Shown here one piece after another: positions 12,567 to 26,230 of a stretch of 64,000 nucleotides of DNA. The translations under genes and the position numbers were made by a program. The stretch covers positions 1-64,000 of the forward strand of contig JAOAFV010000027.1 in the NCBI GenBank assembly GCA_026416095.1. Direction: 5' to 3'. Positions within the stretch are counted from its first letter, which is position 1. Each line of letters starts with the position of its first letter. This DNA comes from Bacteroidales bacterium (lineage in GTDB: Bacteria; Bacteroidota; Bacteroidia; Bacteroidales; GWA2-32-17). The notes below the pieces were generated by a model that was given only the letters and a program-made list of their open reading frames with translations, did not search any database and was not told where the DNA came from.

Positions 12567-13955
<1,389 letters not shown>

Positions 13956-14064
13956 TTATTTTGATAATTATCAATAGAAAAAAATATAATTATTAAACAA
14001 ATTTTTTGACTTCTTTTATTTACGCCAATTTATTTAATTTATAAATTAAAAAAATTTTTTCTTT

Positions 14065-17000
14065 ATGAAAGCAGATGAAAAACCATTATTTATCGAAGAA
14101 TTTATTGATACATTGAAATGGAAACTAAAAGAAAGAATTAAAGAACTTGATGCTATAAAAAAAACAGCCACACTAATTTCACAAAACACACCCTTACCCC
14201 AACTAATAAAAGAACTTTGCGAAATAATTCCAGCTGCCTATCAATATGTCGAAAATACATCTTGTAGAATAACAATCAATAACCACTTTTTTTCTTCTCA
14301 AAACTTCATAAAAGAATCTCAGTATTTTCAAAAAGTTGAAAGAAATACATTAAATAATGAAAAAGTAATTATAGAAGTATTTATTGATGAAAATTTCGCT
14401 TCTACATTAGAAAATGAACTTTTTTTAAAGGAAGAAGAAGATCTTCTAAATAATATTTCAATTCTTTTAGTAAATTATATTAACAATCTTAAAGCAAAAG
14501 AACTTATTTTAAAAAATAACGAAAATTTACTAGATATTAATTTTTTGCTTCAAAAACACAAACAAACTAAAAGTTTTTTACAACAGTACCTTAATCAAAC
14601 ATTTAATTACCTTTATTATTCTGAAGAAATATACAAGTATAAAGTAAAGCACGTACTAATAATTTCGAGCTTATATGATATTTATTCTATTACAAGCGAA
14701 TACTTTATGAGAGGAAACAAACATGAAGACAACTTTTTCCTAAACATGCCAATTTTATACGGAGCTACAACTGAAAACGAAATTATTGATATTCTAAACA
14801 TAAAGAAAATAGACCTTATAATATTAATACACGGAATTGATTATACATTTACACAAAATGTATTGAAGTTGTTTAAACAAAACAATTATAATATTCCTGT
14901 ATATGTTCTTTTTAATAACGAAAAAGATTTAACGTCGTTTGAAAAAAATAATCTTAAAGAATTATATTACAAAAGCTTTATATGGTCTTCCGATATTTTT
15001 CTTTTAATTACTATTTTTAAATTAACAGAAGATTTAATAAACATTGAAGAAGATTTAAAAATAGCTGGAGTACCAATTATTCTTGTTATCGAAGATTCTC
15101 CCTCGTACTATAGCAAAATTTTAACTAAAGTTTACCAAACTATTTTTAAAGAAATACTTACTTTAAAAAACGAACTATCTTTAACTGAATCAACATTTAA
15201 TTATAAGTTTCGACCAAAAATTTTACACTATACAACATTCAGTAAAGCTTATAATTTTTATCAAAAATACAAAGATCTTATATTTATTATAATTACCGAC
15301 ATTGAAGCTAACACCGATTCATTAAATAACTCAGAAGATAACTTGAAATATATTGAAGATATTTTAAAAGAAAGCAAACACATATCGTTATTAGCACATT
15401 CATCCGACGAAAAATATAGAAAAAAAATTTATGAATTGGGTGGTATATTTTTAAATAAAAACTCAAAAAGCTTCTATAACGACTTGAAAGATTTTGTTGA
15501 ATACAATCTTTATATATCTCATTTTAGATTTATAACTACCGACAACAAAGTATTTGGAATAGCAAAAAATATTAAAGATTTCATTAACCTGGTAGTTAAC
15601 ATACCTAACGAATCGCTTATTTTTCATGCTTCAAAAAATCATTTTGCTTTATGGTTTTTTACCTTAGGTGAATATAAAATATCTAAAATTTTATTTGAAT
15701 ACAAGGTTAGTAATTTTAAAAATGTAGATGAATTAAGAAGCTTTCTTATTAACATTATACATAAATATAAAATAGAACAAGAGAAAGGTAAAATAATAGA
15801 ATACGACGAATCTGCAATAACCGACGAAAGAAATATAGTCTTATTAAAAGGTGAAGCTATTGGAGGCAAAGCTCGTGGTTTGGCTTTTCTTAATACCTTA
15901 ATACATAATTTTGACTTAAGCCTTAGTATTCCAGGCATTATAATCAAAACTTTACCAACAATGATTATAGGAACCGAAGAATTCGATGCTTTTATGTTTA
16001 GGCATAAATTATATAAGAAAATTAAAGAAATAAACGATTATAAAAAACTAAGAGAAGTGTTTTTAAAATGTGAACTATCTAACGACCTTATGAATAAACT
16101 AAGAGCTATTGTTAAACAAATTAAAACACCCCTAGCAATCAGATCATCTAGCATGTTAGAAGATTCATCTTCATACCCATTTTCTGGAATTTTCGAAACA
16201 TATTTAATTCCAAATTCACACCCCGACGAAAAAGAAAGAATTGAACAAATAGCCGATGCAATAAAGCTTATATATTCCTCAGTATTTTCGCCGCAAGCTT
16301 TATCGTATTTTGAAACTATAAACTTTAGCTACGAAAGCGAAAAAATGGCAATAGTAATACAAAGTGTAACTGGTAAACAATACGAAAATTATTTTTTCCC
16401 CCATATTAGCGGTACAGCTCAATCTTACAGCTATTATTCAATAGGCAATATTGAGCCAAAATATGGATTAGCATCTTTAGCTATTGGCCTTGGACAATAT
16501 GTTGTTGATGGAGAAAAAACATTTAAATTTTGTCCTTCATTTCCTAAAGTAGATTTAATTTCAATAGAAGATTTATTAAACGAAAGTCAAACATTTTTTT
16601 ATGCTATTAATTTAAAAAACAAGAAGCCAAATTTAATTGAAGGAGAATACTCATCATTAGTAAAATTAGATTTGTACGATGCTGAACGCTTAGGCATTTT
16701 GAACCACATAGCTTCGGTTTATGACTATCAAAATGAAAGATTAGATACCTCGCTTAAAATTTCGGGCCCAAGAATTATTAATTTTGCCGATATTTTGAAA
16801 TATAATTACATACCACTGGCCGATGCTATTAAGTTTATACTTGATATAGGCGAAAACACAATGAAAACCCCAGTAGAAATCGAATTCTCCGTAGATTTAA
16901 GCAAAGATAATATTTATAGATTACCAACACTATATCTACTTCAAATAAAACCTCTTATAGGAAAAGATGATTTCACTTTAAATAATAGAATTCCAATTGA

Positions 17001-17508
17001 TAAAGAAAAAATTATAATATTTAGCGAAAAAGTAATGGGAAATGGTATAATTGATTATTTATCTGATATAATTGTTGTTAACCCCGAAAAATTCAATAGC
17101 TTGGTTACCGAAAAAATAGTTAAGGAAATTGAAGAAGTAAATACGAAATTTTTAAAAGAACATAAAGAATATATATTAATTGGCCCTGGTAGATGGGGGT
17201 CTAAAGATAAATTTATTGGAATACCTGTAATTTGGTCTCAAATATCAAAAGCTAAAGTAATAGTTGAATTAGAACTAAATAACTTTCCTCTTGATCCTTC
17301 TCTTGGCTCTCATTTCTTTCATAATGTAATTGCAATGAAAGTAGGTTACTTTTGTATTAAGTACAGAGGCACAAATGATATTATAAATTGGAATTTATTT
17401 AATAACTTTCAAAAATTATACGAAGGAAACTATATTTCTCATTACAAAGCCGACGTAAATGTTATTATGATAGGAAAAGAACAAAAAGGATATATTTTAT
17501 TAAAATGA
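14065..17508 (+). CDS. Large multidomain protein: N-terminal sensor-like domain, pseudo-receiver, receiver, PEP-synthase/PPDK N-terminal-type ATP-grasp domain, C-terminal GRWGS-motif domain
   Basis: ILVIEDSPSYYSKIL...IIITDIEA...AHSSDEK...LNKNSKS (receiver); GEAIGGKARGLAFL, AIRSSSMLEDSSSYPFSGIFETY (PPDK_N); GPGRWGSKDKFIGIPVIWSQISKAKVI. Confidence 0.85.
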   Translation: MKADEKPLFIEEFIDTLKWKLKERIKELDAIKKTATLISQNTPLPQLIKELCEIIPAAYQYVENTSCRITINNHFFSSQNFIKESQYFQKVERNTLNNEKVIIEVFIDENFASTLENELFLKEEEDLLNNISILLVNYINNLKAKELILKNNENLLDINFLLQKHKQTKSFLQQYLNQTFNYLYYSEEIYKYKVKHVLIISSLYDIYSITSEYFMRGNKHEDNFFLNMPILYGATTENEIIDILNIKKIDLIILIHGIDYTFTQNVLKLFKQNNYNIPVYVLFNNEKDLTSFEKNNLKELYYKSFIWSSDIFLLITIFKLTEDLINIEEDLKIAGVPIILVIEDSPSYYSKILTKVYQTIFKEILTLKNELSLTESTFNYKFRPKILHYTTFSKAYNFYQKYKDLIFIIITDIEANTDSLNNSEDNLKYIEDILKESKHISLLAHSSDEKYRKKIYELGGIFLNKNSKSFYNDLKDFVEYNLYISHFRFITTDNKVFGIAKNIKDFINLVVNIPNESLIFHASKNHFALWFFTLGEYKISKILFEYKVSNFKNVDELRSFLINIIHKYKIEQEKGKIIEYDESAITDERNIVLLKGEAIGGKARGLAFLNTLIHNFDLSLSIPGIIIKTLPTMIIGTEEFDAFMFRHKLYKKIKEINDYKKLREVFLKCELSNDLMNKLRAIVKQIKTPLAIRSSSMLEDSSSYPFSGIFETYLIPNSHPDEKERIEQIADAIKLIYSSVFSPQALSYFETINFSYESEKMAIVIQSVTGKQYENYFFPHISGTAQSYSYYSIGNIEPKYGLASLAIGLGQYVVDGEKTFKFCPSFPKVDLISIEDLLNESQTFFYAINLKNKKPNLIEGEYSSLVKLDLYDAERLGILNHIASVYDYQNERLDTSLKISGPRIINFADILKYNYIPLADAIKFILDIGENTMKTPVEIEFSVDLSKDNIYRLPTLYLLQIKPLIGKDDFTLNNRIPIDKEKIIIFSEKVMGNGIIDYLSDIIVVNPEKFNSLVTEKIVKEIEEVNTKFLKEHKEYILIGPGRWGSKDKFIGIPVIWSQISKAKVIVELELNNFPLDPSLGSHFFHNVIAMKVGYFCIKYRGTNDIINWNLFNNFQKLYEGNYISHYKADVNVIMIGKEQKGYILLK

Positions 17509-17580
17509 TTGTCGTTCAATATTTTTTTTTAAAAAAAAATAAGGGAATTTTGTGTAAAAATTACTTAAAAGTAATATAAC

Positions 17581-19605
17581 ATGTTATCTCAAATTATCTT
17601 TATAACCTCGTTGTTTTTATCAATTGGAATTTTTTGCTATTCAATATACAAACAAATTTATATAAACTTTAAAATTACTCGACCTCTTAAAATAAATAAC
17701 TGGAAAAAAAGGTTTATTATTTTATTGAAAATAGCAATAGGACAATATAAAATATTTAGATTCCCATTTGCCGGAGTATTACACGCTATTACCTTTTGGG
17801 GCTTTATTATCATTTTGTTTGGCACTCTTGAAATGATAATTGATGGAATAACTGGTAACATAAAATCTTTATCATTTATTGGAAAACCTTATCAGGTTAT
17901 AATGATGCTAATAGATATTTTTGCTTACCTTATATTTATTTCAATAATCTTATTTCTCGGAAGAAGAATATTTAACATTGTACAACGATTCAAATCGCCC
18001 GAAATAAAGAAAAAATCAAAAATAGATGCTCTTATTTCTCTTTTGCTTATTTTAATACTTATGATTACGTTAATAATTATTAATTTACATGAAGTTAGCT
18101 CTGAAAAAACAAATTATCTTATATTAAGTAAAGTAATACACAATTTAACTGGTATAACTTTTAGCCACAATATAGCAAAAGGTTGCTGGTGGTTGCACAT
18201 TGAACTAATATTTTTATTTGCTAATATTTTGCCATATTCAAAACATTTTCACATTTTTACTTCATTACCAAAAGTATTTTTAAGTAGGTTAGAACCATTA
18301 TCATACATTAGTAATATGAAATCAATTACCGCTCAAATAGAATCTTTTAACAACAACTCCGAAGTAAACTCAGAAATCAACGAAAGATTTGGCATAAAAG
18401 ATGTTGAAGATGTTACATGGCTCTCATATCTCGATAGCATAAGTTGCACAGAATGTGGAAGGTGTGTCTCTGTATGTCCACAAAATTTAACTGGAAAACT
18501 TCTATCGCCTCGAAAAATAATGATGGATTTAAGAAAACGAATGAAAGAAAAAGGATATAAGTATTTTAAAAACAATGATTACAACGATAATAAATCGTAT
18601 CTTTATGACTACATTACTGAAGAGGAAATTTGGGCATGTAACTTATGCAATGCATGTGCAGGTGAATGTCCTATAAATATTTATCATCCCCAAATAATTA
18701 TTGACTTGAGAAGATTCTTAGTATTAGAAGAAGGAAAAGCAAAGGGAGGATTACAAAATATTTTTGCTAATATTGAAAATAATGGTGCTCCATGGCAATA
18801 CTCACCCGAAGATAGATTAAACTGGGCAAAAGAAGATAACATCGAAATACCAGTAATGAAAGATGAAGTAGCAAAAGGCCACTATCCTGAATACCTATAT
18901 TGGGTTGGATGCGCCGGAGCTTACGATTTTAGATATAAAAAAGTTGCTAAAAAGTTTGCCCAAATATTAAATAAAGCTGGTATTGATTATGCTGTTTTAG
19001 GTACCGAAGAAACTTGTACAGGCGACCCCGCAAAAAGGGCAGGTAATGAATTCGTTTTTCAAATGCAAGCTTTTAAAAATATTGAAATATTTAAGCGTTA
19101 CAATATAAAAAAAATTATTACTACCTGTCCTCATTGCTATAATATACTTAAGAATGAATACCCAAGTTTCGGTTATCAATTTGAGACCATACACTATACT
19201 ACTATTCTTAATAAGCTTTTAGATGAAAATAAATTAAAGCCACTACCTATCAATAACATTTCTGTAACATACCACGATCCATGTTATTTAGGAAGAGGTA
19301 ATAATATTTACGAAGAACCAAGAACAATAATAAAAAAATTAGGATATAAGATAATAGAAATAAAACAAAGTAAAAGCTTTTCAACGTGTTGTGGAGCAGG
19401 TGGAGCTCAATTTTTCAAAGAATCTGAAAAAGGTACACAAGAAGTTTACGAATATAGAACTTCTCAATTATTGCAAAGTAACACAAAAACTATTATTACA
19501 TCATGTCCCTTTTGTATAAACATGCTCAACGATGGCCTAAAAAAATTAAATAAAGATACTGAAGTAAAAATTTACGATATTACTGAATTAATAAACACTG
19601 AATAA
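17581..19605 (+). CDS. Membrane-anchored Fe-S oxidoreductase (heterodisulfide reductase-like, 4Fe-4S plus CCG domains)
   Basis: N-terminal TM helices; CTECGRCVSVCPQN, CNLCNACAGECPIN; YWVGCAGAYD...CTGDPAKRAG...CPHCYN; HDPCYLGRGNNIYEEPR...CCGAGGAQ. Confidence 0.9.
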   Translation: MLSQIIFITSLFLSIGIFCYSIYKQIYINFKITRPLKINNWKKRFIILLKIAIGQYKIFRFPFAGVLHAITFWGFIIILFGTLEMIIDGITGNIKSLSFIGKPYQVIMMLIDIFAYLIFISIILFLGRRIFNIVQRFKSPEIKKKSKIDALISLLLILILMITLIIINLHEVSSEKTNYLILSKVIHNLTGITFSHNIAKGCWWLHIELIFLFANILPYSKHFHIFTSLPKVFLSRLEPLSYISNMKSITAQIESFNNNSEVNSEINERFGIKDVEDVTWLSYLDSISCTECGRCVSVCPQNLTGKLLSPRKIMMDLRKRMKEKGYKYFKNNDYNDNKSYLYDYITEEEIWACNLCNACAGECPINIYHPQIIIDLRRFLVLEEGKAKGGLQNIFANIENNGAPWQYSPEDRLNWAKEDNIEIPVMKDEVAKGHYPEYLYWVGCAGAYDFRYKKVAKKFAQILNKAGIDYAVLGTEETCTGDPAKRAGNEFVFQMQAFKNIEIFKRYNIKKIITTCPHCYNILKNEYPSFGYQFETIHYTTILNKLLDENKLKPLPINNISVTYHDPCYLGRGNNIYEEPRTIIKKLGYKIIEIKQSKSFSTCCGAGGAQFFKESEKGTQEVYEYRTSQLLQSNTKTIITSCPFCINMLNDGLKKLNKDTEVKIYDITELINTE

Positions 19606-19612
19606 ACAGTGT
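19595..19612 (+). terminator. Short hairpin overlapping the stop codon, possible weak terminator
   Basis: ACACTG-AATAAA-CAGTGT followed by ATTTTAG. Confidence 0.3.
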
Positions 19613-19830
19613 ATTTTAGAACAATCTATATAAATAATTTTCATAAAAAGTTATACATAAATAAAAATTTAAATATCTTTTATAATTTTCTAAATAAAAT
19701 AAAATTAACCATTTTCGAGATAATAAATCAATATGAGCTTCTATTACAAAAAGAAAATACTTATCTTTTATTTATTGGAAAAATATAAGAGAATAATATT
19801 TAAAGCGTTATAAGATAAAAATTAATATTT

Positions 19831-22824
19831 ATGAATATAAAACAATTAATTGAAAACAAATCATATACATTTTTCGATACATCTTTTGAAATGTTAATGC
19901 AAAAACGCATTTACAAAGTACTCATAATTTCAAATGCATACGATTTATTTATGTTAGAAGAAGATGGAAGAATTGAAGAAAGGTTATTTTTTGAATATAC
20001 TCAATATAACTTGCGGTTTCCTCCTCAAATATTCAAAGCAACAAACGTAAATTCAGCTTTTAACATACTCGAAGAAGAAAACATTGATTTAATAATCATT
20101 ATGCTAAACATTGGCGAAGATGATGCTTTTACTTTGTCGAAAAAAATTAAAATAAACTACCCAAACAAACCTATAGTGTTACTATCTTTATTTTCGCGAG
20201 AATTGATTAACAAGCTTACAACTATAGGAACGCATTATTTCGACGATGTTTATTGTTGGCTTGGCAATACAGATATTCTACTTTCTATAATTAAATTATT
20301 AGAAGACAAAATGAATTTGAAACACGATGTAAAAGAAGTTGGAGTTCAAGCAATTTTATTTGTAGAAGATAATATTAGGTATTATTCGTCATACTTACCA
20401 CATTTGTACAGATTAGTATTCCAGCAATCACAAAGAGCAATGCAAGAAGGACTTAACGAACATCAGAAAATGATGCTAATGAGAGGTAGACCAAAAATTT
20501 TACATGCTAAAACATATAATGAAGCTGAAGAAATTTTTAATAATTATAAAGAAAATTTACTTGGTATTATTTGCGATATTGATTTCCCACGAGAAAACCA
20601 AGAAGATCCCGAAGCCGGTATAAAATTCCTTGAATACGTAAAAAAAGAAGATGAATTTATGCCTTTTATACTTCAATCAAGCGATACTAAATACGAAAGT
20701 TATGCTATTTCAAAAGGTGTTGGCTTTATTAACAAATATTCAAAAAGCTTGTCATTCGAATTGAGAAATTATCTTATTAAACACTTTGCTTTCGGAGATT
20801 TTATTTTTAGAGATCCTAAAACTAATTTACCAATTGATGCAGCTTCCGATTTAAAATCACTCCAGGAAAAGATTTTCAAAATACCCGACGAAACCTTAGA
20901 ATATCATGTTAAACAAAATCACTTCTCTAAATGGCTAATGGCAAGAGCTTTATTCCCTATTGCTAAAATGTTAAAGTATGTTAGGTTTGAAGATTTTAAT
21001 TCTATTGACGAACTAAAAATGTTCTTATACGACGTTATCGATACATACAGAAAATATAGAGGACAAGGTGTAATTGCAAAGTTCGATTCTAAACGAATAG
21101 ATGAATATTTAACTTTTAGTAGAATAGGTGAAGGATCTCTTGGCGGGAAAGCACGAGGCATTGCTTTTTTAGATAATATAATTAAGAAATACGAACTAAA
21201 CTCAAAATACGAAAATGTTAATATAAGCATACCTAAAACCATAGTTATTAGTTCCGATATCTTCGATGAATTTATGGAAGCAAACGGGCTTTACAAGATT
21301 GCCTTAAGCTCCGATATCTCAAACGAAGAAATTATAACAACTTTTGTTGAATCGAAACTTCCGGGTAATTTATTACAAGATTTGTATGCAATTATTGATA
21401 TATTTGATGGGCCAATTGCAATTCGGTCGTCAAGTAAACTTGAAGATTCTCAATATCAGCCATTTGCGGGTGTGTATAATACTTACATGATTCCAAACAT
21501 AAAAAACGATAAGCAAAAAACTATTAAATTATTAACCGATGCTATTAAAAGTGTTTATGCATCAGTTTTTTTTAAAGAAAGCAAATCTTATATTACTGCA
21601 ACATCAAACATTATCGATGAAGAAAAAATGAGTGTAGTTATTCAACAAATCGTTGGCAGTAGATATGGAAATTATTATTTTCCAGTTATCTCAGGTGTTG
21701 CACGTTCTATTAATTTTTACCCTATCGATCAAGAAAAACCTGAAGACGGAGTTGTAAATATTGCTTTTGGACTCGGTAAATATGTTGTCGATGGTGGAAA
21801 ATCTTTAAGATTTTCACCCAAATACCCACAAAAAATTTTACAACTTTCTAACGTTGAACTATCACTTAAAAACTCTCAAAATTACTTTTACGCACTAAAT
21901 TTAGATCCAGATTATTTTGTAGCATCACAGAAAGATGATATTAACATTTCAAGGCTTTATATAAATGAGCTTAGTTTACCTCATAACCTGCTAAATTATA
22001 TTGTTTCTTCTTACGACGCCAATAATAATATTATTTACCCAGGAATTTATTACGAAGGAAAAAAAATAATAACTTTTGAAAATATACTTGTCAATAATTC
22101 ATTCCCCCTTGCTAAAGTTTTAGATGACATATTACAGATACTATACAACGAAACTAATACTCACATTGAAATTGAATTTGCCGTAAACATAGATTGTGAT
22201 AAGAAAATTATGTACTTTTACCTATTACAAATTAGGCCTGTAGTACTTAACAAAGAATTTACTAATATTAATTTTGAAGTATTTAACAACAACGATTGTA
22301 TACTATCTTCTATAAATGTTTTAGGTAATGGAATTTTAGATAATATTTATGATTTAATACTTATAAAAAAAGAAACTTATAAACCGCAAATAAATAACGA
22401 TCTTGTTTATACTATAGAAAAATTAAACAAAAAGTTAAGCAACGAGAACCGATTATACATACTTGCTGGTTACGGCCGATGGGGTTCAAGCGACCCATGG
22501 TTAGGAATACCTGTTAAATGGGCTCAAATTTCAAATGCTAAGGTCATTATAGAAATAGGTTTACCAAATTTTAATGTTGAACCTAGTCAAGGAACTCATT
22601 TTTTTCAAAACATTACTTCTTTAAGTGTAGTTTACATTACAATTAATCCATTTTCAGGCGACGGTTTTTTTAATTTTGAGTTTTTAAATTCTTTACCAGT
22701 AGAATACGAAGACACTTATATTAAACACATCAGATGTACTGAACCCTTTATTACAGCTATCGACGGTAAATTAAAAAAAGGAGTAATACTCAAGCCAGGA
22801 ATCAAGTTAACCTCTGTTACTTAA
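19831..22824 (+). CDS. Paralog of 14065..17508: pseudo-receiver, receiver, PEP-synthase-type ATP-grasp domain, GRWGS-motif C-terminal domain
   Basis: ILFVEDNIRYYSSYLPHLYR...IICDIDFP...LQSSDTK...INKYSKSL; GEGSLGGKARGIAFL; AIRSSSKLEDSQYQPFAGVYNTY; GYGRWGSSDPWLGIPVKWAQISNAKVI. Confidence 0.85.
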   Translation: MNIKQLIENKSYTFFDTSFEMLMQKRIYKVLIISNAYDLFMLEEDGRIEERLFFEYTQYNLRFPPQIFKATNVNSAFNILEEENIDLIIIMLNIGEDDAFTLSKKIKINYPNKPIVLLSLFSRELINKLTTIGTHYFDDVYCWLGNTDILLSIIKLLEDKMNLKHDVKEVGVQAILFVEDNIRYYSSYLPHLYRLVFQQSQRAMQEGLNEHQKMMLMRGRPKILHAKTYNEAEEIFNNYKENLLGIICDIDFPRENQEDPEAGIKFLEYVKKEDEFMPFILQSSDTKYESYAISKGVGFINKYSKSLSFELRNYLIKHFAFGDFIFRDPKTNLPIDAASDLKSLQEKIFKIPDETLEYHVKQNHFSKWLMARALFPIAKMLKYVRFEDFNSIDELKMFLYDVIDTYRKYRGQGVIAKFDSKRIDEYLTFSRIGEGSLGGKARGIAFLDNIIKKYELNSKYENVNISIPKTIVISSDIFDEFMEANGLYKIALSSDISNEEIITTFVESKLPGNLLQDLYAIIDIFDGPIAIRSSSKLEDSQYQPFAGVYNTYMIPNIKNDKQKTIKLLTDAIKSVYASVFFKESKSYITATSNIIDEEKMSVVIQQIVGSRYGNYYFPVISGVARSINFYPIDQEKPEDGVVNIAFGLGKYVVDGGKSLRFSPKYPQKILQLSNVELSLKNSQNYFYALNLDPDYFVASQKDDINISRLYINELSLPHNLLNYIVSSYDANNNIIYPGIYYEGKKIITFENILVNNSFPLAKVLDDILQILYNETNTHIEIEFAVNIDCDKKIMYFYLLQIRPVVLNKEFTNINFEVFNNNDCILSSINVLGNGILDNIYDLILIKKETYKPQINNDLVYTIEKLNKKLSNENRLYILAGYGRWGSSDPWLGIPVKWAQISNAKVIIEIGLPNFNVEPSQGTHFFQNITSLSVVYITINPFSGDGFFNFEFLNSLPVEYEDTYIKHIRCTEPFITAIDGKLKKGVILKPGIKLTSVT

Positions 22825-23892
22825 TTCTATTAATTTTTGTTTTTGTAAAATATGTATTTCATTTCTTAAAGTATCAATAACCTTCATCTCTTTTAAATCA
22901 GATAATATTCTTACCGTATTTTCTGTACTTAATGCAGATAATTCTGAAATATCTTTTCTAGATATAAAACCTTCTATTACTTGACTACAAAATACTTCGT
23001 CGCTTAAGTATAATAAAGTATCACATACTCTAGAAAAAGCTTGTTTTGTTGCAATTTTATTCATCCTATCAATTAAAAATAAAATATTTGACGATAATAA
23101 CTCTATTATAGAATGAGAAAATTTAGAATTTTCTCTTGTTATACGTTCAAATTCATTCCTTTCTATAAAATATACTTTCGAATCGGTAAGAGCATTAATA
23201 GTAAATATTTGATAAGATGTATTGAAAAGCAATGAGAGCCCTACAAACTCAAACCCCTTTGCAATTTTAATTATAAAATTGTGAGAGTATAAATTTTCAC
23301 ATGTAAGTTTTACATAGCCATGCTCTATTAAAAATATGTAATTAACATTCGTCTTCTGTTTGCTTATGGTTTCTCCTTTTTTAAAGTATATTGGTTTTTT
23401 TAAAAAAATTTCCACTTCATTATCTTTCAAACATAACGTTTTAAGGTATTTTATTAAATCTACATTATAATTTTCAGTATCACTATTAACTGTTTTTTTT
23501 ATACTATTAATACTTGATTTGTAACTTAAAAAACTCAATATTCTTTTTGCAACTGTTTTTAATATTAAAATTTCTTCGTTCTTAAAAATAGGTTTTTCAG
23601 AAACAATAGGCTTAATATAATACACGTTAATTTCAATTTCGTTCGACTCATGTTTTTCTTTCACTGTCAATTTGAGTTCTGTTTTTTTAAAATCTTCACA
23701 TTTATAAATTACCTGATTATGTTTTATTTCGCATTTACATATTTCACTGTACGACATTAAACTCGGAACATACGAGCAAATTTTTTCTAATATTTCCTTA
23801 GTATCTCTATTTAAATCAATTAACAAATTCTCAATTTCATTTATAATTTCAAAATGTTTACTCAAAAACATTAAGTCGTATATTTTTTTCAA
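22807..23892 (-). CDS. Crp/Fnr-type cyclic-nucleotide-binding transcriptional regulator with an extra N-terminal sensor-like domain
   Basis: PIYFKKGETISKQKTNVNYIFLIEHGYVKLT cNMP-binding fold; C-terminal wHTH ISRKDISELSALSTENTVRILSDLKEMKVI. Confidence 0.85.
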   Translation of the reverse strand: MKKIYDLMFLSKHFEIINEIENLLIDLNRDTKEILEKICSYVPSLMSYSEICKCEIKHNQVIYKCEDFKKTELKLTVKEKHESNEIEINVYYIKPIVSEKPIFKNEEILILKTVAKRILSFLSYKSSINSIKKTVNSDTENYNVDLIKYLKTLCLKDNEVEIFLKKPIYFKKGETISKQKTNVNYIFLIEHGYVKLTCENLYSHNFIIKIAKGFEFVGLSLLFNTSYQIFTINALTDSKVYFIERNEFERITRENSKFSHSIIELLSSNILFLIDRMNKIATKQAFSRVCDTLLYLSDEVFCSQVIEGFISRKDISELSALSTENTVRILSDLKEMKVIDTLRNEIHILQKQKLIELSNRG

Positions 23893-24052
23893 AAGAATAT
23901 AAATCTGTTTAATTTTAGCTTGATATTTATCATTTTTTTTATTAATTGATTTTTCTTCATATAAGTACTTGATTTATAAATACCTAAATTATATTTGTTT
24001 AAAAACATAAAAAAAAATAACAATTTTTTTTTTTTACTAAAAAAAGAGCTTA

Positions 24053-24088: not shown

Positions 24089-25426
24089 ATGAATGTAGAA
24101 AAAATAATGCAAGAATTAGAATTAAAACATCCTGGCGAGGTAGAATATTTACAAGCAGTAAGAGAAGTTCTTGAATCTATAGAAGAGTTTTACAATAGTA
24201 ACCCGCAATACGAAAAAGCAAAAATAATAGAACGATTAATTGAACCCGATAGAGTTTTAATATTTAAAGTACCTTGGGAAGATGACAAAGGCGAAATTCA
24301 CGTTAATATAGGTTATAGGGTTCAATTTAATAATGCTATAGGGCCATACAAAGGCGGATTGCGTTTTCACCCATCAGTTAATTTAAGTATTTTAAAGTTT
24401 TTAGGATTTGAACAGATTTTCAAAAATGCACTAACAACGCTTTCAATGGGAGGTGCAAAAGGTGGCAGCGATTTTAACCCAAAGGGCAAATCTAACACAG
24501 AAATTATGCGTTTTTGCTACAGTTTCATGTTAGAATTATGGAGAATTATTGGTCCCGATACAGACGTACCTGCTGGCGACATTGGAGTTGGTGCTCGCGA
24601 AATTGGTTATTTATATGGAATGTACAGAAAACTCTTAATGGAAAACACAGGTGTTTTAACAGGTAAGGGTTTAAACTATGGGGGTTCTCTAATTCGCCCA
24701 GAAGCCACTGGTTATGGCGTTGTTTACTTTACCCAAGAAATGCTTAAAACTCGCGGCCTAGACATTAAAGGTAAAAAAGTCGCCTTGTCGGGGTTTGGCA
24801 ATGTAGCATGGGGGGCAGCTAAAAAACTTAATAGCTTAGGAGCAAAAGTAATTACTATTTCAGGCCCTGATGGTTATATTTACGACGAAGAAGGAATAAG
24901 TGGTGAAAAAGTTGATTTTATGTTAGAATTGAGAGCTTCAAACGAAGATATTGTGAAACCATATGCTTATAAATTCAAAAATTCTGTTTTTTACGAAGGT
25001 AAAAAACCATGGGAAGTTCCGTGCGATATTGCTATACCTTGTGCTACACAAAACGAACTAGATAAAACCGATGCAGAAAATCTTGTTAGGAATGGTTGTA
25101 TTTGCGTAACCGAAGGAGCTAACATGCCATGCACTCCAGAGGCTATAGAAGTAATTCAAAAGAATAAGCTCTTATACGCACCTGGTAAAGCTGCTAACGC
25201 TGGAGGCGTTGCTACTAGCGGGCTCGAAATGAGTCAGAATGCTATGAAACTAATGTGGAGCGCCGAAGAAGTTGACAGAAGATTAAATGAAATAATGAAA
25301 AACATACATTCGCAGTGCGTAAAATACGGTACAGAAAGCGATGGATATATAAATTATGTTAAAGGTGCAAATATAGCCGGTTTTATTAAGGTAGCTAATG
25401 CTATGCTCGAACAAGGAATTTATTAA
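24089..25426 (+). CDS. gdhA: Glutamate dehydrogenase, second paralog
   Basis: [68 protein letters not shown]. Confidence 0.96.
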   Translation: MNVEKIMQELELKHPGEVEYLQAVREVLESIEEFYNSNPQYEKAKIIERLIEPDRVLIFKVPWEDDKGEIHVNIGYRVQFNNAIGPYKGGLRFHPSVNLSILKFLGFEQIFKNALTTLSMGGAKGGSDFNPKGKSNTEIMRFCYSFMLELWRIIGPDTDVPAGDIGVGAREIGYLYGMYRKLLMENTGVLTGKGLNYGGSLIRPEATGYGVVYFTQEMLKTRGLDIKGKKVALSGFGNVAWGAAKKLNSLGAKVITISGPDGYIYDEEGISGEKVDFMLELRASNEDIVKPYAYKFKNSVFYEGKKPWEVPCDIAIPCATQNELDKTDAENLVRNGCICVTEGANMPCTPEAIEVIQKNKLLYAPGKAANAGGVATSGLEMSQNAMKLMWSAEEVDRRLNEIMKNIHSQCVKYGTESDGYINYVKGANIAGFIKVANAMLEQGIY

Positions 25427-26101
25427 TATTTACTAAATTTTGAATACCTCTGTTATAATTTAAAATGAAAGAGTTTTAAAATTGTAAAATCGGTAATTTG
25501 AGCTTAGGAAAGATAGCTTTAGAAGGGAAATAATACATTTAAGTAAATTTAAAAAAAAGAATTTATTGAAAGTAATTATAAAAAACAAAAGAAAATATAC
25601 ATAACTTTAACTTGGTGAAAAAATTCAGAAGAGGTAAACATATTTACAAAAAGGTTATATGCAATAGGTTTGTAAGGGTTTTATGACAACATTTTGGAAG
25701 ATATTGGTTTTTAATCATACTCAGTTGAAAAAAGTTATTTTTTGGTAATTTTATAAAGGCCTTAAAGAATTTTTAGTTCGAAAAAATTAAAAAATTGAAT
25801 TTTCTATAGATTATTTGATTTGTGTAAAAAACTTAACTAGTAAAAGGAATCTGAGAATTTCAAAAATTACAAAAATTTTAAATAATAATTTATCACAATT
25901 ACAGCTATTGTAATTCTGTAACTTTTCTGTTAGTAATTGAACTTGCTTATCAAATTAAACTTATTTAAACTAACTTGCTGCATTTCTTAGAGAAGTTATA
26001 AAATCAATCTGCTTCTAAATTTTTTCTTTTTTAATATAACAAACAAATAAGATTAATAACCTTTCAAATTAAAAGAAAAACCCTTCACTTAAAAAAAAAT
26101 T

Positions 26102-26203
26102 AGACCTTTGCAAAATCTTTTGCAAAGGTCCTAGAATATTTTGGAAAACATTAATTTTTTTCTATTACAGTTAAATTATTTTTAGGTAGTTTTGCAAAGG
26201 TCT
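26102..26203. mobile_element. MITE-like element or IS remnant with 14-bp terminal inverted repeats AGACCTTTGCAAAA
   Basis: Left end 26102-26115 AGACCTTTGCAAAA; right end 26190-26203 TTTTGCAAAGGTCT; extra internal inverted copy at 26118-26130. Confidence 0.5.
26103..26130 (-). terminator. Candidate rho-independent terminator downstream of dnaK, formed by a perfect 13-bp palindrome
   Basis: GACCTTTGCAAAA-TC-TTTTGCAAAGGTC; on minus strand followed by TAATTTTTTTTT. Confidence 0.55.
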
Positions 26204-26230
26204 CAATTAAAAAGACAAAACTTGACATAA

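Follow-up and report, generated by a model that had tools for sequence, protein, structure and literature searches.

Receiver-bearing ATP-grasp proteins encoded beside glutamate dehydrogenase genes in Bacteroidales are candidate modulators of these enzymes

Introduction

The PPDK_N-type ATP-grasp domain with its catalytic residues is shared by phosphoenolpyruvate (PEP) synthase, pyruvate phosphate dikinase (PPDK) and rifampin phosphotransferase, and tandem receivers placed before an output domain are found in response regulators with enzymatic output, such as PleD and PorX. We know of no described response regulator in which an ATP-grasp module serves as the output. A sensor standing before a phosphotransfer module and tied to nitrogen status is found in PtsP (enzyme I-Ntr, nitrogen phosphotransferase), which combines a GAF with a phosphohistidine domain. 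In this study, we analysed a stretch of 64,000 nucleotides from a Bacteroidales genome (contig JAOAFV010000027.1, positions 1 to 64,000; hereafter the window) in which two genes, P1 (14065..17508, plus strand, 1147 aa) and P3 (19831..22824, plus strand, 997 aa), encode proteins joining receivers to an ATP-grasp domain and lie between two genes for glutamate dehydrogenase (GDH). We lean towards the view that P1 and P3 are dedicated, receiver-controlled, ATP-dependent post-translational modulators of the adjacent GDHs and that the P3 type corresponds to the Bacteroides gene(s) reported in 1996.

GDH catalyses the main ammonia-assimilating step in Bacteroides. Reports from the 1980s are said to describe a reversible in vivo inactivation of the B. 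fragilis enzyme, and the abstract of the 1996 study reportedly states that activity was regained in Escherichia coli when a separate plasmid supplied about 3 kb of DNA from the downstream side; we use both only as leads. According to its title, as cited in PMC4539542, that study concerned trans-acting gene(s) downstream of Bacteroides thetaiotaomicron gdhA which affect GDH activity (Baggio and Morrison 1996, J Bacteriol 178:7212). Three spots for one GDH on 2D gels (PMC4539542) are compatible with a modification of the enzyme without proving it. Our literature search yielded neither the molecular identity of the trans-acting gene(s) nor any report on the present protein family together with GDH.

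Results

The PPDK_N domain was detected by Pfam in both P1 and P3 (E 1.8e-33 and 1.5e-39, respectively), and the alignment of the two proteins (34% identity over 991 columns, E 8e-164) indicates that their paralogy is real. The initial annotation had described them as paralogs pairing receiver-like modules with a PEP-synthase-type ATP-grasp domain, which agrees with the Pfam match, the alignment and the structure models (AlphaFold mean pLDDT 85.5 for P3 and 73.6 for P1). P3 consists of a pseudo-receiver (approximately aa 27-160), a complete receiver (171-320), a helical linker (324-425), the ATP-grasp domain (436-808) and a C-terminal domain with the motifs GRWGS and GTHFF (809-997). P1 begins with a GAF-like sensor (approximately aa 12-150), followed by a pseudo-receiver (approximately 190-330), a complete receiver (approximately 335-485), the ATP-grasp domain (598-965) and the C-terminal domain (966-1147). 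A receiver gave a weak Pfam match, under the curated cut-off, in P3 only (2e-6); the receiver modules of P1 therefore rest on homology to P3 and on the structure model.

Residue conservation was assessed in an alignment of 199 family members, P3 included. The second receiver of P3 carries the set expected of a response regulator, i.e., the acidic pair E179 and D180, the phospho-acceptor D249, S283 and K302, the last three being invariant wherever the domain is present. Asp249 (20575..20577, plus strand), the candidate phospho-acceptor, is D in 182/182 members having the domain, while the first receiver has Met91 in place of the acceptor. The corresponding candidate in P1, Asp412 (15298..15300, plus strand), occupies an invariant column, as do E343, D344, S446 and K465. 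The ATP-grasp residues K440, R532, E538, D539, E782 and Q800 are kept in the P3 family. The C-terminal domain is marked by the invariant R883, W884, G885, D888, S919, G921, F924 and F925 and by the near-invariant His923 (22597..22599, plus strand; H in 197 of 198 members), a candidate catalytic residue at the N-terminus of the predicted helix 923-930. The invariant His1083 of P1 (17311..17313, plus strand) is likewise the first residue of a helix in the model. The family is uncharacterised, and its C-terminal domain with the invariant His is undescribed.

The ATP-grasp domain of P3 is homologous to that of PEP synthase (hhalign 99.3%, 3.5e-20). A Foldseek search with the whole P3 model, in which the C-terminal domain was not isolated, gave rifampin phosphotransferase as the best structural match (E 8e-12) and also retrieved receivers, with PleD and PorX among the matches. 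The C-terminal domain occupies the position of the phosphohistidine domain of PEP synthase, and its first strand aligns to that enzyme by hhalign; PF00391, the swivelling domain of PEP-utilizing enzymes, had no match in P1 or P3. Besides the ATP-grasp domain, neither Pfam nor NCBIfam detected a PEP/pyruvate-binding TIM barrel, the chain stopping about 190 aa past the ATP-grasp domain. Since a barrel is missing and a separate, normal PPDK is encoded in the genome, P1 and P3 are probably not PEP-making enzymes. They thus differ from PEP synthase, PPDK and rifampin phosphotransferase in the missing barrel, the undescribed C-terminal domain, the N-terminal receivers and the linkage to GDH. The likeness to PtsP is one of analogy; PtsP uses PEP instead of ATP and has no receivers.

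The two GDH genes of the window are gdh1 (12567..13946, minus strand; NCBIfam NF006929, 796 bits) and gdh2 (24089..25426, plus strand; NF010633, 832 bits). Both products are full-length matches to family-I hexameric GDH above the curated cut-offs and are 64% identical to each other. Transcribed outward, they bracket P1, P3 and two further genes, with gdh1 divergent from P1 at a distance of 118 bp. The initial annotation had drawn its unit around the four inner genes and left out GDH, the dominant partner, whose genes flank that unit.

In the genome_contigs collection (84,980 species), 80 loci with P3 relatives were identified (the named loci), nearly all from metagenome-assembled genomes of Bacteroidales or other Bacteroidota; P1-type genes and GDH recurred as neighbours in these loci. 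P3 relatives were present in 258 of the 295 genomes of the window's order (about 87%), and a phylum-level sample of 297 genomes contained full-length relatives in several families outside the order. When the loci of the phylum-wide sample were examined with 1.5-kb flanks, a GDH gene lay within approximately 1.5 kb of P3 in 23/29. GDH open reading frames were concentrated within three genes of P3 as compared with positions farther away in the phylum loci (34/135 vs 0/107, p 3e-10), in the order loci (7/117 vs 1/167, p 0.009) and in the 80 named loci (17/389 vs 2/453, p 1e-4), these p values not being strict because the loci are related by descent. Among 43 well-flanked named loci, 12 had a P1-type gene at most three genes away from P3. 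At least two gdh matches occurred in 10/22 P3-bearing and 0/20 P3-lacking genomes (p 6e-4), but genome size and completeness confound this difference.

The gene order gdh-P3-(histidine kinase, response regulator)-gdh-P3-second-type gdh was seen repeatedly in another class, and several genomes have a histidine kinase/response regulator pair that separates GDH-P3 modules. GDH of another class is also adjoined by family members that have diverged to about 30% identity, some of them combining GAF, ATP-grasp and nucleotidyltransferase domains. Three of these GDH-linked members have a C-terminal nucleotidyltransferase (L181:4764-7946(-), L185:7640-10807(+) and L188:7842-10580(-)), and two of the three have a GAF-like N-terminus. 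In L164, a separate gene for a GAF-like and nucleotidyltransferase protein and a metallophosphoesterase gene are located between P1 and P3; a nucleotidylylation/phosphatase arm may be part of the P1/P3 system. Genes of 2-oxoacid:ferredoxin oxidoreductase (TPP-binding subunit) were directly upstream of P1 in L018, L026, L167 and L171, and glutaminase adjoined P3 in L010, L014, L029 and L037.

The linkage to GDH is paralog-specific. Distinct adjacent pairs were typed by the closer resemblance of their GDH to gdh1 or gdh2 of the window: P1-type genes adjoined gdh1-type enzymes in 7/7 pairs and order-level P3-type genes adjoined gdh2-type enzymes in 23/28 (Fisher p 1e-4), and the P1-linked GDHs form a single clade in a tree of 82 rows (support 96/89). 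The divergent gdh1-P1 pair was also found in L059, L081 and four genomes of the genus or family. Sister genomes keep gdh1-P1 apart from a second module, the divergent pair of gdh2 with a gene for a Crp-type regulator, the two being on different contigs; the window unites the two modules, with an Fe-S protein gene in between. In the sister genomes (L282:588-8006(-), L283, L284 and L288) a NuoE/NuoF/NAD(P)-flavoprotein-molybdopterin-like set comes after gdh1; this set is missing beside gdh1 in the window. The NuoE/NuoF/NAD(P)-flavoprotein set, a GDH-linked electron-transfer complex, also stands beside P1 or P3 in other families.

Named relatives show the same grouping. In Parabacteroides distasonis, the annotated gdhA is divergent from a gene whose product, a 'PEP/pyruvate-binding domain-containing protein', shares 49% identity with P3, and a second GDH gene lies 3.5 kb further on; GDH, P3 and GDH are grouped likewise in Phocaeicola massiliensis. 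In two loci, L112 and L113, gdh1 has a 3.0-kb P3 gene as its immediate downstream neighbour, in convergent orientation, and gdh2 follows beyond a prolyl oligopeptidase gene. Given the 80% identity between their P3 and the P. massiliensis protein, these loci are probably from Bacteroidaceae. The P3 type resembles the trans-acting gene(s) of B. thetaiotaomicron in its position downstream of gdh and in its association with GDH, the comparison being made through L112 and L113. Its length of about 3 kb matches the complementing segment, which is reported to be of that size. Judged by position in these Bacteroidaceae-like loci, a P3-type protein is a likely candidate for the product of the 1996 gene(s).

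Discussion

Judging from gene neighbourhoods, the P1/P3 family is very probably dedicated functionally to GDH, and control of GDH activity by the family at the post-translational level is likely. P1 would modulate the product of gdh1 and P3 that of gdh2. The signal would reach the complete receiver as a phosphoryl group, for which either the protein's own His or a histidine kinase (other genomes have a kinase gene within the cluster) could be the donor; in P1, a ligand of the GAF-like domain would add to it. This signal would gate the ATP-grasp module, which together with the C-terminal domain and its invariant His would spend ATP and switch GDH activity, the probable route being phosphoryl transfer either to GDH or via the His and Asp sites of the regulator itself. 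ATP-driven phosphoryl transfer is a plausible means of such control; we infer it as the chemistry, as we do GDH as the target and the sign of the effect. More tentatively, the family could represent a new type of metabolic-enzyme switch, in which a receiver/GAF-controlled ATP-grasp/phosphohistidine module reversibly activates or inactivates GDH by phosphoryl transfer, with a separate paralog for each of the two GDH isoenzymes; such a switch would be in use throughout Bacteroidales, human gut genera among them, and in related lineages.

P1 and P3 probably control ammonia uptake or release in these bacteria, and the family is widespread in Bacteroidales, human gut species among them. A specific candidate can be named for the 1996 gene: its type occurs in about 87% of the genomes sampled from the order and at present carries no annotation beyond 'PEP/pyruvate-binding domain-containing protein'. 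If the proposed function is true, an ATP-grasp phosphotransferase would be added to the outputs of receiver-domain signalling.

Several observations weigh against this assignment. Beyond its first strand, the C-terminal domain has no detectable sequence relationship to the phosphohistidine domain of PEP synthase, and a PDB profile search with the domain found no relative; hhalign of the domain against PPDK was uninformative, the profile being too narrow. R802, the last Arg of the ATP site in P3 and PEP synthase, is replaced by Lys in a subset of the family including P1 (K962, invariant in the P1 alignment), and P1 may thus be catalytically altered. GDH was within three genes of P3 in only 8/43 well-flanked named loci of the window's order, the other 35 having none nearby. 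A GDH match persisted in 17 of the 20 P3-lacking genomes of the order (in one case a contig-end fragment only), and P3 is therefore not obligatory for every GDH. A strict phyletic dependence between GDH and P3 is ruled out by the same finding.

The combination on one chain of the ATP-grasp domain, a complete receiver and an invariant His that starts a helix where PEP synthase has its swivelling domain would also suit a self-contained signalling protein, in which the ATP-grasp module phosphorylates the His and the phosphoryl group passes to the receiver Asp of the same chain, the receivers standing in for the usual acceptor domain. GDH would then be controlled indirectly, e.g., by a phosphorylation-dependent protein contact. 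We regard this as unlikely, since family members without receivers (the 580-aa and 1060-aa forms) are linked to GDH as well, some genomes have a linked conventional histidine kinase and the homology of the C-terminal domain to the swivelling domain is not established. It is also improbable, in our estimate, that P1 and P3 are enzymes whose dikinase-like reaction uses a small molecule from the glutamate/2-oxoglutarate/pyruvate node, with GDH co-located as part of the pathway. The ATP-grasp domain does belong to a family of metabolic enzymes, and the 2-oxoacid:ferredoxin oxidoreductase subunit, glutaminase and the NuoE/NuoF/NAD(P)-flavoprotein complex recur as neighbours. However, neither a barrel nor another substrate domain was found in P1 or P3 by Pfam or NCBIfam, a normal PPDK is already encoded in the genome, the receivers and the GAF-like domain speak for regulation, and the pairing of each paralog with its own GDH suits a regulator better than a pathway enzyme.

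The initial annotation had combined P1, P3 and the two genes accompanying them into one phospho-signalling or redox switch. All four open reading frames are intact at the coordinates and on the strands it gave. The Fe-S gene (17581..19605, plus strand, 674 aa; a membrane part with 4Fe-4S and CCG domains by Pfam) fuses two proteins, a membrane/4Fe-4S one and a CCG one, which most relatives encode by two adjacent genes, mostly at places unrelated to the present locus. The Fe-S gene had no match near P3 in the 80 named loci, and none of more than 100 loci had it in the vicinity of P3 or GDH, so its membership in the unit was rejected on neighbourhood comparison, and we judge it a passenger outside the system. 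The contiguity of the four genes in the window and the P3-Crp adjacency seen again in three genomes (G555, G592 and G442) speak for the four-gene switch; the Fe-S gene, never found beside P3 or GDH elsewhere, and the location of gdh1-P1 and Crp-gdh2 on different contigs in sister genomes speak against it. We consider it highly improbable and, by neighbourhood comparison, largely refuted. What stands of the proposed regulatory or metabolic association is the recurring P1/P3 pair, with co-occurrence beyond this genome for P1, P3 and the Crp gene and none for the Fe-S gene.

The Crp-type regulator (22807..23892, minus strand, 361 aa; GAF-like sensor, cNMP_binding and HTH_Crp_2 by Pfam and hhalign) is encoded convergently to P3, with an 18-nt overlap, and divergently from gdh2. 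Its GAF-like N-terminal domain is common to P1 (hhalign 99.7%), and both proteins are homologous at the N-terminus to the divergent 1060-aa GDH-linked ATP-grasp/nucleotidyltransferase proteins as well (99.7-99.9%), which ties the regulator to the same kind of signal as P1. The divergent Crp-gdh2 pair occurs in five genomes of the genus or family in addition to the window. The place that the initial annotation gave to the Crp gene holds in part: the gene recurs beside P3 or gdh2, but only in the genus or family and a few other genomes, and on this distribution it appears as a local addition to the P1/P3-GDH set. In this genome, the regulator probably controls gdh2 and itself at the transcriptional level. 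An FNR-like palindrome, TTGATATTTATCAT (23920..23933), with one mismatch to TTGATN4ATCAA, is a tentative operator in the crp-gdh2 promoter region; a site with at most one mismatch was present in this spacer in 6/6 family genomes, and shuffled controls do not give it. A perfect FNR-like palindrome, TTGATAATTATCAA (13961..13974), in the gdh1-P1 spacer may be due to chance. It is not conserved in the sister species, and matches of its quality occur in the window at the frequency expected by chance and are not enriched genome-wide; this box was set aside as an operator on both counts.

Between gdh2 and dnaK (26097-26208 of the window), there is an inverted repeat, AAATTAGACCTTTGCAAAA / TTTTGCAAAGGTCTCAATT (19 nt, 89% complementary), inside which an extra copy of TTTTGCAAAGGTC is located.

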